Source: an uncultured Pelagibacteraceae bacterium
GTDB lineage: Bacteria; Pseudomonadota; Alphaproteobacteria; Pelagibacterales; Pelagibacteraceae
Length of the DNA stretch: 64,000 bases
NCBI GenBank assembly: GCA_902597895.1
Contig: CACJZM010000001.1
Coordinates: 15,001 to 79,000, forward strand
Reading direction: 5' to 3'
The first letter of the stretch is position 1. Each line of letters begins with the position of its first letter. Below the pieces are notes generated by a model. The model made no database searches, was not told the DNA's origin, and saw only the letters and a list, made by a program, of their open reading frames with translations. Both the position numbers and the translations under genes were made by a program. Positions 10,954 to 42,338 of the stretch are shown in pieces.

Positions 10954-13494
10954 ATGCTAAATCCATTAAATATTTTATCAAAATTCATTAAAACTGGAAA
11001 CCAAAAGGAATTAAATAAAATAGATAAAATTGTAAACCAAATAAATATCCTTCAAAAAGATGTAGAAGTTCTGGGAGATGATCAGTTTCCAAAAAAAACA
11101 ATTGAATTAAGAGAAAAAATTAAAAATGGAATTTCCTTAGATGAAGTTTTGCCTGAGGCTTTTGCAATAGTTAGAGAGGCATCAAATAGGGTTAGATCTG
11201 AAAAACATTTTGATGTTCAATTAATTGGAGGGGTAGTGCTTCACCAAAATAAAATTGCAGAAATGAAAACTGGTGAAGGAAAGACTCTAACAATAGCTTT
11301 AGCAGCGTATTTAAATGCGTTAGATAATAAAGGTGTTCATGTAGTTACTGTTAATGATTACCTTGCTAAAAGAGACTGTGAAAATATGGGAAAGATTTAC
11401 AATTTTTTAGGTTTAAAAGCTGGCTATATCAACAATGGTCAATCAGATGAAGAAAGAAAATTAAATTATGATTGCGATATTACTTATGCAACCAATTCTG
11501 AACTTGGATTTGACTATTTGAGGGATAATATGAAATATTCGAACGAGAGTATGGTTCAAAGAGGACATAACTATGCAATAGTAGATGAGATTGACTCCTG
11601 TCTAATTGATGAAGCGAGGACCCCACTAATAATATCTGGTGCATTAGAAGATAAAACATCACAATATCTTGCAGTAGATAAATTAATTAAAAATTTAAAG
11701 GCAGAGGATTTTGAAATAGATGAGAAGGATAAAAATATATTATTAACAAATAAAGGGATTGATAGTGTAGAAAATATATTTTCCTCTGCTGGAATGCTTA
11801 AAAATGATAACTTTTACGATCCTGAAAATTTAAATTTAGTACATTTAGTTAATCAATCTTTAAGAGCAAATCATCTTTTTTTTAATGGTAGAGATTACAT
11901 TGTTAAAGATAATCAAATAATTATAATTGATGAACAAACTGGAAGGCAATTACCAGGAAGAAGATTTGGAGATGGTTTGCATCAAAGTATTGAAGCTAAA
12001 GAAAAAGTAAAAGTTCAATCAGAAAATCAAACTGTAGCATCTATAACTTATCAAAATTACTTTAAACTTTATAAAAAATTATCTGGTTGCACAGGGACTG
12101 CAGCAACAGAGTCTGAAGAATTTTTTGAAATTTATAATCTTCCAGTAATATCTGTTCCTACGAACAAAAAAATGATTAGAAAAGATTGGAATGATCTAAT
12201 TTTTAGAACAGCAAAAGAAAAAGATGATGCAATTATTAAAAAAATAAATGATATTAATTCTACTGGACAACCTGTTTTAGTTTTTACCGCAAGTGTAAAT
12301 AAATCTGAACATTATTCGAAACTGCTTGAAGAAAAGAAAATTAATCATTTAGTATTAAACGCAAAAAATCATGAAAAAGAAGCAGAAATAATTGCTAATG
12401 CTGGTAAAAAAAATTCAGTGATAATTACTACAAGTATATCAGGCAGAGGAGTAGATATAAAACTGGGAGGCAAAGATTATGACGAAGGTTCAAAAAAAGA
12501 AATAAAATCTTTAGGAGGTTTATTTGTCATTGGGACAGAAAGAATGGAAAGTAGGAGAGTAGATAACCAAGCTAGAGGAAGATCTGGTAGACAAGGTGAT
12601 GAAGGGAATTCAATATTTTTTGTAAGTTTAGAAGATGACCTAATGAGAATATTTGGTTCAGAATCGATGAACAATATGCTAGAAAAACTTGGTCTAAAAG
12701 ATGGCGAAAGTATTGATCATCCCTGGATTAATAAAGCCCTTGAAAGAGCACAACAAAAAGTTGAGTCAAGAAACTTTGATATTAGAAAAACATTATTGAA
12801 GTTTGATAATGTTCTTAACGACCAACGTCATGTTATTTTTACACAAAGGAATAATATTATAAATTTAAATAATTCGTTATCTATAAGTAATGATTTTTTA
12901 GATGAAATAATTTTGATATTAGTTAATCATAAGAAAAAATATTTATCTAATCCAAAAAATAGTGAATTTAAAAATTATTTTAAACAAATATCAGGAAAAG
13001 CCTTTACAGAAGAGCAAATAGAATCGTTTATTGAAATGAATGATGATCTTTTTAAAGATAAAATATTAAACAAATTTAATGACCAAAGAATTCAAAGAGA
13101 AAATATTTTAGGAAAAGATAGATCTGATGACATCGAAAAAAGAATATTTTTACAATTAATAGATCAAAACTGGACTTCTCATATTCAATACTTAGAACAG
13201 TTAAGAACTGTTATAGGATTAAGATCATATGGTCAAAGGGATCCTCTTGTAGAATATAAAAAGGAAGCTTTTAATTTATTTGAAAACTTACTAAATAAAC
13301 TTAAGACAGATTTTATTACTATACTATTAAATTTAAAGGTAATTACTGAAGATAATAAAATAGAACAAAAAAAAACAATGAAATCTTCAAATCCAAAATG
13401 TCTTTATATAATAAAAAAAAATGAAAAAATTTCTAGAAATGAAAAATGTCCCGCTACCGGAAAAAAATTTAAGAACTGTTGTGGAGCCTTATAA
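10954..13494 (+). CDS. secA: Preprotein translocase ATPase SecA
   Basis: MKTGEGKTL, VHVVTVNDYLAKRD, GRGVDIKLGG, degenerate C-terminal Zn motif CPATGKKFKNCCG. Confidence 0.97.
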   Translation: MLNPLNILSKFIKTGNQKELNKIDKIVNQINILQKDVEVLGDDQFPKKTIELREKIKNGISLDEVLPEAFAIVREASNRVRSEKHFDVQLIGGVVLHQNKIAEMKTGEGKTLTIALAAYLNALDNKGVHVVTVNDYLAKRDCENMGKIYNFLGLKAGYINNGQSDEERKLNYDCDITYATNSELGFDYLRDNMKYSNESMVQRGHNYAIVDEIDSCLIDEARTPLIISGALEDKTSQYLAVDKLIKNLKAEDFEIDEKDKNILLTNKGIDSVENIFSSAGMLKNDNFYDPENLNLVHLVNQSLRANHLFFNGRDYIVKDNQIIIIDEQTGRQLPGRRFGDGLHQSIEAKEKVKVQSENQTVASITYQNYFKLYKKLSGCTGTAATESEEFFEIYNLPVISVPTNKKMIRKDWNDLIFRTAKEKDDAIIKKINDINSTGQPVLVFTASVNKSEHYSKLLEEKKINHLVLNAKNHEKEAEIIANAGKKNSVIITTSISGRGVDIKLGGKDYDEGSKKEIKSLGGLFVIGTERMESRRVDNQARGRSGRQGDEGNSIFFVSLEDDLMRIFGSESMNNMLEKLGLKDGESIDHPWINKALERAQQKVESRNFDIRKTLLKFDNVLNDQRHVIFTQRNNIINLNNSLSISNDFLDEIILILVNHKKKYLSNPKNSEFKNYFKQISGKAFTEEQIESFIEMNDDLFKDKILNKFNDQRIQRENILGKDRSDDIEKRIFLQLIDQNWTSHIQYLEQLRTVIGLRSYGQRDPLVEYKKEAFNLFENLLNKLKTDFITILLNLKVITEDNKIEQKKTMKSSNPKCLYIIKKNEKISRNEKCPATGKKFKNCCGAL

Positions 13495-39110: not shown

Positions 39111-40592
39111 CTAAGAATTTTCATATTTTTTTTGTATTGACATTACATGATTATTTAATTCATCTAAAAACTTTAATTTTTCTTGATCATTTTCATTGGA
39201 ATACTTATCTCTAAGAGTATCAATCTCATTATAACAGGTGGATACTGTCCACCATTTTTCAGCTTTTTCACTTAAAATTCTTTTTGCAATCGATCGTTTA
39301 ATTGATTGAAACATATTATTTGGCAAAGTCTCAGGAGACTCTTGAAAAATTATTTTTTTTCCAAAACCGACAAGTCTCTCATCGTCAAATTTGTCAAGAA
39401 GTCTCAATTTATCCTTCCATGAGGCAGCATGCCATGAGGGAAATAATGAGGTGTCTTTATTTGAAGTAAACTTTTGATAAATACTCTCCTCCGCATATAT
39501 ATCCTCTTGAGACTTAGATTGTTCTTTCTCCTCTGCAATTTCTCTTAATGCAGTTAAAATATTTTGACTAAATTTTTCATTCTCTTTTATTAATTTTGCC
39601 CTTTTAAATATTAAACTTTTATCTATTACATTATAAGGTTCAACCTCCATACCGTACTTCGCATCTAATATTATGGGAGCTTTATTAGATCTAATTGTTC
39701 TTAAAAATTTAGGAGTTTTTTTCATTTCAGCTCTTAACTCATTTATTGACATATTTAATAACGGCTCAATATCAACACGAAGATCGACAGCCTGACCCCA
39801 ATTATAAATTGGATGTATACAGTGTTTTGGATGTAGAGGCGCACATAAATATAATCTTGATTTCCCATAGAAGTATTCATTTAAAGTAATTATTTCTTCT
39901 TTTTTAAAGATTGTTTCTGTATCTGATCTACTTGCTGTTCTTAAAAACATATCCCAAGTACTCGGTTGTCTTTTTTTAATAATACTTAAAATTTTTGCAG
40001 TTAAAGTAGCATCTGTTAATGCGCTGTGAGCATCACTAGAATCTAGTCCTTGCATTCGAGAAAGAGATTCAAGCTTAAATATCGGGTTATTCTTTTCATT
40101 TATTTCTGTTTCTAAAACTGAAGGATCTACTGCATAGGCAGCTCGAGCAATGTTTATACCATCGTGACGTTTTGAAGGTGAAGCATTTGTTATGTAAGGA
40201 TATCTAATACCTTTAAAAAATTCCTTTCTAATCATTTCATCATCAAATCCTGTTTGAAAAAGCGACTAACCCCCTCTTATAAAAAGAGGGGGCAGCCGCC
40301 CTATATTGGACCACCCCATGAAGATTGCCGGACTCCATCTCTTGAAGGTTTTTTCAACTTCACCAAGCATTTGATAATGGCTTAAATTTCCTTGAGTTAA
40401 TTGTTTAATACTTGTTTTGTTAACTATTAAAGCCATTGCTTGGGGAATTTCACCTTCAGGCAATCTACATCTTAAATTAAATCTGTCTTTTTCTTTAAAG
40501 TTTTCATCAACTAATACTCCACCAATTTCAATTATACTTCCAAAATCTGTCGATGCTGACGAGCTCTCTATGTCCCAAATAGCTAGATTCAT
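39111..40592 (-). pseudogene. sbcB: Exodeoxyribonuclease I, reading frame interrupted by a 51-nt in-frame insert carrying TAG
   Basis: N-terminal part 40266-40592 (IWDIESSSASTDFGSIIEIGG...FMGWSNIG) and C-terminal part (GFDDEMIRKEFF...SSDAHSALTDA) are in the same frame and together resemble E. coli ExoI 'GYNNVRFDDE...NAHDAMADV'. Confidence 0.85.
40251..40301 (-). other. 51-nt in-frame insertion within sbcB with a 9-bp GC-rich hairpin and an amber codon
   Basis: Minus-strand codons GGG CGG CTG CCC CCT CTT TTT ATA AGA GGG GGT TAG TCG CTT TTT CAA ACA between '...AAT ATA' and 'GGA TTT GAT GAT GAA'; CCCCCTCTT/AAGAGGGGG stem at 40270-40292. Confidence 0.8.
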
Positions 40593-41651: not shown

Positions 41652-42338
41652 TCAAGATAAGTTTTTTAATTCATGAAATTTTTTGAGTCTTCCTAAAAAT
41701 AAGTTCTGATATATTTCTAATTCAGCTCCCTCAATTTTAAACTCTTGGAATAAAATATCTTTTGTACATAGTAAAATTATTCCTGCTTCCATTTTTGTTC
41801 CGTGAACTACATCATGAGCCAGAGTATAAGCTCCTAATTGTAAAAAGTAATCCTGTATATATGCACTTTTCTTAATTTTGTTTGCTTGTTTAAAATCTAT
41901 CACGACGCTTTTGCCTTGGTAAACTCCAATAAGATCAGCAGTTCCAGCATATTTTTCAGGATAAACAAGTGTTGTTTCAACTCCATATATTTCTTCTAGC
42001 TTTCCTTTGATACCTTTATCTATTATTTCCTTTGCCATATTTTTATATTTTTCATTACTTTCAAAAAAACTTTCATTAATACGTCCTCTCAAAAAATCCT
42101 CTAAATAAGAATGCATTGATGTACCTGTTGCTGATGCTTCATTTTTAATTTTATTAGCGACCGCAGGGCCTACACGTTCAATCCAATTTTTTAATGCTGC
42201 TTTATCTTCATCTGATTTAGTTTGCTGTAAGATAGAAGTAACGCTTGGAAGTTTTTGATTATTTACCAAGTATTTTCTTAATCCATCCTCAATTGATCTT
42301 GAGGATTTTGGATAGTTAAATTTATTATTCCAGATCAT
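41652..42338 (-). CDS. PD-(D/E)XK nuclease superfamily protein (MGME1/phage exonuclease-like)
   Basis: GTSMHSYLEDFL, YAGTADLIGVYQGKSVVIDFKQANK (D...DxK active site). Confidence 0.8.
   Translation of the reverse strand: MIWNNKFNYPKSSRSIEDGLRKYLVNNQKLPSVTSILQQTKSDEDKAALKNWIERVGPAVANKIKNEASATGTSMHSYLEDFLRGRINESFFESNEKYKNMAKEIIDKGIKGKLEEIYGVETTLVYPEKYAGTADLIGVYQGKSVVIDFKQANKIKKSAYIQDYFLQLGAYTLAHDVVHGTKMEAGIILLCTKDILFQEFKIEGAELEIYQNLFLGRLKKFHELKNLS

Follow-up and report, generated by a model that had tools for sequence, protein, structure and literature searches.

Short stem-loop inserts in conserved genes of SAR11 bacteria: a mobile family possibly crossed by ribosome bypassing

The sbcB gene for exonuclease I (ExoI), on the minus strand of the window (the whole 64-kb stretch of DNA analysed here), runs from an ATG at 40592 to 39111 and is broken at 40251–40301 by 51 nt that hold an in-frame stop codon. 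This raises the question of what the insert is and how ExoI could still be made. A first, sequence-only reading of the locus had offered a pseudogene or mini-element, ribosome bypassing or removal at the RNA level, amber read-through, and an assembly artefact. The window (28% G+C) belongs to a 1.0-Mb draft genome of the SAR11 type that is 83% complete; sbcB has an RmuC-family gene upstream and a thioredoxin gene downstream.

The interrupted sbcB gene

The insert, GGGCGGCTGCCCCCTCTTTTTATAAGAGGGGGTTAGTCGCTTTTTCAAACA on the minus strand, lies between the codons for NI and those for GFDDE, and its position is as first described. Read in frame, the codons for S N I are followed by an insert that opens GGG CGG CTG, carries TAG after GGG GGT and closes CAA ACA, and then by GGA TTT GAT. 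The parts of the locus are these:

40302–40592, minus strand: upstream (5′) part of the sbcB reading frame, 97 codons ending in ATA (Ile), with the DIE motif
40299–40301, minus strand: GGG (Gly), candidate take-off codon at the stem base; an NGN codon in frame precedes 10 of 10 copies
40251–40301, minus strand: the 51-nt insert (GGG...CAAACA), covariance model match of 72.9 bits
40284–40299, minus strand: 5′ arm of the stem, GCGGCTGCCCCCTCTT
40279–40283, minus strand: loop, TTTAT
40262–40278, minus strand: 3′ arm of the stem, AAGAGGGGG, a bulged T and TAGTCGC
40266–40268, minus strand: TAG, the in-frame stop within the insert
40251–40261, minus strand: A/T-rich tail, TTTTTCAAACA, which changes fastest of all parts among the sbcB copies
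40248–40250, minus strand: candidate landing codon GGA (Gly)
39111–40250, minus strand: downstream (3′) part of the sbcB reading frame, starting with GGA, with FDDE and the Pfam domain Exonuc_X-T_C, no decay

With AGG at either end, the joint can be placed only to within about 3 nt; if the gap is taken to start after GGG and to include GGA, the insert is 40248–40298. It is flanked by open reading frames of 108 aa (40266–40592) and 374 aa (39111–40235), and its removal restores a single frame, as had been claimed, and the exact protein. The only in-frame ATG after the stop does lie past FDDE, so that the catalytic Asp precedes it; this rules out a split gene encoding two functional ExoI halves. 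The hairpin had been described as a perfect 9-bp stem and proves longer, with 16 bp and one bulge, or 18–19 bp if the GGG codon is counted. Its predicted fold has a ΔG of about −31 kcal/mol (z-score −4.2 in context), and it is the sole stem of at least 8 bp with at least 5 G+C in the 64-kb window.

All 16 aligned relatives of the same genus lack the insert (NI-GF or SL-NF with nothing between), and their frames are open over 476–499 aa. Within the window genome the element is present as a single copy, in a gene, by BLAST, pattern and covariance model alike. The only truly interrupted gene among about 190 comparable genes (359 kb of the window genome) is sbcB; other ‘broken’ genes from tblastn proved to be start-site extensions or single-base shifts. 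In a genome of another family (G050) sbcB lies in two adjacent pieces (C1:133496–134234), which may be a plain frameshift.

Further copies, their anatomy and spread

A hairpin scan of GTDB species genomes gave one other record, the single-cell genome AG-404-C02 (CACENP010000001.1), whose sbcB carries a 50-nt insert at the window's site with TAA in the loop. Pattern scans of about 400 genus and about 400 family genomes (overlapping samples) added inserts of 49 nt in G242 and 50 nt in G563 (a 95% complete genome), both at exactly the same site of sbcB. Other genes are also occupied. The trxA gene of AG-404-C02 holds a further copy (KFG / 51-nt gap / VRGIPT), and infA of this genome a third (VLQ-GGG-gap-GGA-D-N-V, 53 nt, out of frame). 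In G181 the same infA site is occupied (53 nt), a second insert of 47 nt lies in this gene between AGG and AGA (Arg), and a 43-nt copy interrupts a 228-aa gene corresponding to window 41652–42338, which is called nuclease-like by eye and has no Pfam match. Finally, trxA of G242 has a 46-nt insert right after the CGPC motif, with an unrelated stem sequence and TGA directly after the TGT codon. The tally is 10 copies at six sites in four genes (sbcB, trxA, infA and the nuclease-like gene) of five genomes: the genome search that the sequence-only reading had proposed reveals a dispersed mobile family and not a single case.

An unbiased scan of 1.86 Mb of SAR11 sequence gave 18 strong hairpins. 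Seven of these are copies of this element, which accounts for every hairpin between two halves of one protein, and no other strong hairpin lies in a coding region. The scan used a perfect-stem filter, which the second-site infA copy and the nuclease-like copy (G·U pairs or bulges) escaped. Small frameshifts were also seen in RNase H of AG-404-C02 (L275, about 11585–12005) and in a transporter gene of G181 (L291, 539–1448); these are draft-genome background, unlike the 43–53-nt hairpin inserts.

The carriers are draft genomes, at least one of them amplified from a single cell, and the insert could in principle be an artefact of assembly or amplification. Against this, four separately assembled species share the sbcB site with differing flanking codons, loops and tails, the stems covary, kindred inserts lie in three other genes, and the window genome has no truly broken gene otherwise among those compared. 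An artefact is therefore very unlikely.

Every copy consists of a strong stem-loop of about 15–23 pairs and a mostly A/T-rich tail of about 6–15 nt, with total gap lengths of 51, 50, 49 and 50 nt in sbcB, 51 and 46 nt in trxA, 53, 53 and 47 nt in infA and 43 nt in the nuclease-like gene. The four sbcB stems are nearly identical: 14 of 16 stem pairs do not vary, and one two-sided and one one-sided change keep the pairing. Such constancy across diverged sbcB genes could reflect recent exchange. The loops and tails of these copies vary far more than the stems.

All 10 copies contain an in-frame stop, omitting the insert restores one conserved protein exactly in every case, and all downstream frames are open. 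The length is not divisible by three in eight copies, and the sbcB copies span all three frames, each with an in-frame stop and with the next 374–375 codons intact. These lengths bear directly on amber read-through, by which ExoI would gain a 17-aa loop. The 51 nt of the window genome are a multiple of three; however, the other three sbcB copies (50, 49 and 50 nt) are frame-shifting and contain TAA, most copies in the other genes (53, 47, 46 and 43 nt) also shift the frame, and no amber suppressor is present among the tRNA genes found. The chance that read-through explains the insert is negligible.

The codons at the ends of the gap show a further regularity. The candidate take-off codon is in frame and of the form NGN throughout (eight copies with GGG, one each with AGG and TGT), and the stem-loop begins at or just after it, most stems including it at their foot. 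An RGG-SGC motif is found at five sites, and RGG is in codon register at all five (chance about 1 in 81). The end codon equals the take-off codon except at base 3 (GGA, GGT, AGA) in eight of the 10 copies and differs at base 1 in the other two (GGG to AGA in trxA; TGT to AGC). Seven end-codon pairs would fit one tRNA (GGG/GGA, AGG/AGA) and the GGG/GGT pair of G242 sbcB shares two bases, and short end repeats of this kind could come from insertion alone. The window genome contains tRNA-Gly(UCC) and tRNA-Arg(UCU), which are able to read both ends. Next to this codon stands CGG or CGC in six copies, GGC in three and, in G242 trxA, the stop TGA. CGG and CGC are the two rarest Arg codons counted in the window genome (0.13 and 0.22 per thousand). 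The idea that CGG is unassigned is weakened, as this codon is very rare yet can be read by tRNA-Arg(UCG).

On an sbcB tree from which the insert and its 5′ flank were left out, its presence in four carriers takes four state changes, and a single clade of carriers is rejected (AU p 7e-30). G181, which belongs to the window's own sbcB clade, has no sbcB insert. The scatter shows that the insert moves or is exchanged. About 33–38 nt of 5′ flank are almost identical in three of the carriers (3 differences of 33), whose genes are otherwise 72–82% identical with synonymous sites near saturation; this looks like short-tract exchange along with the insert, in a homing-like manner. A 38-nt upstream tract as a required signal is ruled out by G563, which has the insert without this shared flank, and the tract is read as co-exchange. 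In the window genome and in AG-404-C02, the ten codons 5′ of the sbcB insert (window 40302–40339) have G or C at 60–70% of third positions, clearly above more distant codons.

All known copies sit in a trxA-sbcB-nuclease-infA neighbourhood, which corresponds to 38.7–47.2 kb of the window. Those of AG-404-C02 are at 66.9, 68.3 and 82.0 kb on its C1 and those of G181 at 55.1, 59.6 and 59.7 kb on its own C1; tblastn found none elsewhere in 809 kb of AG-404-C02. Between sbcB and hisG, AG-404-C02 encodes a DruA-domain protein and a GHKL ATPase beside RmuC (L237, 10591–14966). This looks like a defence island that is absent from G181 at the same place, and the absence rules out the Druantia-like island as the mobiliser. 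No mobilising enzyme or linked recombinase was found, and the Y1 (REP) transposase PF01797 is absent from the window genome, an 83% complete draft.

The exact stem arms gave no match in viral contigs, nor did BLAST against phage and plasmid collections. Generic CCCCCTCTT...AAGAGGGGG hairpins of viral contigs were rejected as relatives, since most proved to be unrelated terminators or members of a distinct TAACNCCCC palindrome family. The latter (TAACNCCCC..CCCCCTCTT..AAGAGGGGG..GGGGGNGTTA) occurs as several repeats on single viral or metagenomic contigs (IMG/VR; L033, L037, L054, L110 and others). Three SAR11 genomes share a similar hairpin between genes, CTTGTGGGG..CCCCACAAG (L146, 1992–2016; L155, 7480–7502; L161, 11498–11520), which may be a conserved RNA or terminator.

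Host genes and the route to an intact protein

Downstream of the insert, sbcB is under strong purifying selection. The 3′ parts of the carriers have dN/dS of about 0.04–0.06, like insert-free kin, the ratios being rough as dS is near saturation (dN 0.076 and dS 1.89 for the window genome against AG-404-C02; 0.12 and 2.2 for G563 against an insert-free neighbour; 0.09 and 1.95 for G242 against its neighbour). None of the four carriers shows further stops, frameshifts or relaxed selection in this gene. Decayed C-terminal codons, which the sequence-only reading took as a sign against recoding or splicing, are thus absent.

The infA gene, which encodes IF-1, has one insert in AG-404-C02 and two in G181, and its pieces are 88–100% identical to the window's intact IF-1. 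A search for a second infA over 809 kb (AG-404-C02) and 235 kb (G181) found none. Model bacteria cannot live without IF-1, and because the only infA found in these two genomes is split, IF-1 is probably made; the other host proteins, too, would be made despite the insert.

These data bear on the proposal of an inactivating mini-element, a REP- or MITE-like palindrome or terminator-like hairpin that jumps in, breaks genes and is lost or selected out so soon that decay is never seen. The scatter on the tree and the local exchange of flanks would fit such an element, as would a tolerable loss of sbcB. A T-rich stretch follows the sbcB copies, a terminator-like arrangement, and together with the strong stems it might terminate transcription. 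On the other hand, all four sbcB carriers are free of decay, infA is hit in two genomes, the diverged loops and tails indicate that the element is not brand-new, other strong hairpins are missing from coding regions in the 1.86 Mb scanned, and the window genome has no Y1/REP transposase. Inactivation is an unlikely explanation. The earlier suggestion of a pseudogene or mini-element therefore stands as regards the mini-element and falls as regards the pseudogene, the downstream frames being intact and constrained and infA, essential in model bacteria, being among the targets.

Since most gaps shift the frame, read-through cannot yield the proteins, which leaves ribosome skipping, removal from RNA or removal from DNA. 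Programmed or frequent excision of DNA would remove the insert precisely in some cells, as in phase variation, and the assemblies would show the occupied state. Short end repeats (AGG/GG) and palindromes favour precise loss, and the presence of the element is patchy. However, every occupied cell would have an essential gene switched off, AG-404-C02 as a single-cell genome has three sites occupied at once, and the searches gave no linked recombinase. We consider DNA excision distinctly improbable.

Removal at the RNA level would cut the stem-loop from the mRNA and join the ends by a tiny self-splicing or enzyme-driven process, so that a continuous frame is translated. It accounts for exact restoration at any length, for the conserved strong stem and for intron-like insertion at highly conserved motifs. 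Nevertheless, 43–53 nt is far below the size of known self-splicing introns, an Rfam scan of the window gave no family or ribozyme core at the insert, the copies share no splice-site sequence except G at codon position 2, and neither codon register nor near-matched codons would be expected. We regard RNA removal as possible, with a rather low probability.

Bypassing is favoured because the codon register, the near-matched end codons, the gap length and the stem-loop at take-off match T4 gene 60 and the features set out in a review of the process (PMC5009743). Bypassing or RNA-level removal was one of the options first raised and is the best supported of them; the analogy with T4 gene 60 is closer than was then described, in gap length, take-off at the base of the stem-loop and near-matched Gly codons. 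On balance we favour the view that the 51-mer is a copy of a mobile family of 43–53-nt stem-loops, which occupy NGN codons, GGG (Gly) in most cases, in conserved genes of SAR11 and are tolerated through ribosome bypassing. A ribosome with peptidyl-tRNA on the GGG codon would let go at the strong stem-loop, slide across the gap and re-pair on the near-matching end codon, usually GGA, as in T4 gene 60. Bypassing would make the element harmless to its host and let it persist, and homing-like or recombinational exchange may spread it with some of its 5′ flank. Weak points of this proposal are that the match of the end codons could be partly a by-product of insertion, that a stop after take-off of the T4 type is found in one copy only, that two landing codons match imperfectly, and that the stems are far stronger than in T4 and might act as terminators.

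Significance and comparison with known systems

To our knowledge, the established cases of efficient long-range bypassing are a single phage gene and the mitochondria of yeast, and the origin and generality of the process are old questions. In open-access journal literature, no paper was found that pairs Pelagibacter with ribosomal bypassing or describes these inserts. If the proposal is true, a multi-copy family in abundant ocean bacteria offers many differing gaps to compare, bypass gaps can travel as mobile elements, and SAR11 genes that gene callers list as split, even infA, are wrongly annotated. Should the inserts instead be removed from RNA, no smaller intron-like element would be known in bacteria.

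The inserts resemble group I and group II introns and inteins in using conserved catalytic motifs as sites (ExoI NxxFD, thioredoxin CGPC-K), in their patchy, homing-like distribution and in the exchange of flanks. They differ in having neither a ribozyme core nor an ORF and in measuring only 43–53 nt. REP and MITE-like elements and the Rickettsia palindromic elements (RPEs) are likewise short mobile palindromes inserted in genomes. REPs, however, are mostly intergenic, carry GTAG/CGTC tags and are associated with Y1 transposases, whereas the window genome has no Y1 and its sole copy is intragenic. RPEs are kept in frame and translated, whereas the SAR11 inserts mostly shift the frame and hold stops.

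The likeness to T4 gene 60 extends to a 50-nt non-coding gap, a Gly take-off codon where the stem-loop starts, a Gly landing codon, stops in the gap and exact restoration of the protein. T4 differs in that UAG directly follows take-off, in its identical GGA/GGA pair, in a required nascent peptide and in a weaker stem (−16.6 kcal/mol, against −25 to −40 kcal/mol here when folded in the same way). It is also one phage gene, whereas the SAR11 inserts are a multi-gene mobile family in bacterial chromosomes, known here from sequence. An insert associated with a homing nuclease has been suggested as the origin of the T4 gap (PMC5009743).

The mitochondria of Magnusiomyces capitatus contain 81 bypassed inserts (byps), several with an imperfect codon match (PMC5009743). 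Like the SAR11 inserts, these are short and dispersed in conserved genes, and their take-off and landing codons do not always match perfectly; the A-site codon of byps is described as rare or not used (PMC5009743), and a very rare codon has this place in six SAR11 copies. In contrast, byps belong to mitochondria with relaxed decoding, whereas the SAR11 inserts are found in free-living bacteria, in few copies and in one region of the chromosome. It seems fairly plausible, judging from the sequences, that these are bypass elements spreading horizontally in bacterial chromosomes, in which the insert alone would suffice for the ribosome to leap, so that conserved genes, even essential ones, could be invaded harmlessly at their catalytic motifs, as with infA twice in one genome. 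By analogy, and with similar reserve, such elements may be to bacteria what byps are to yeast mitochondria, and the gap of T4 gene 60 may have a living relative in them.
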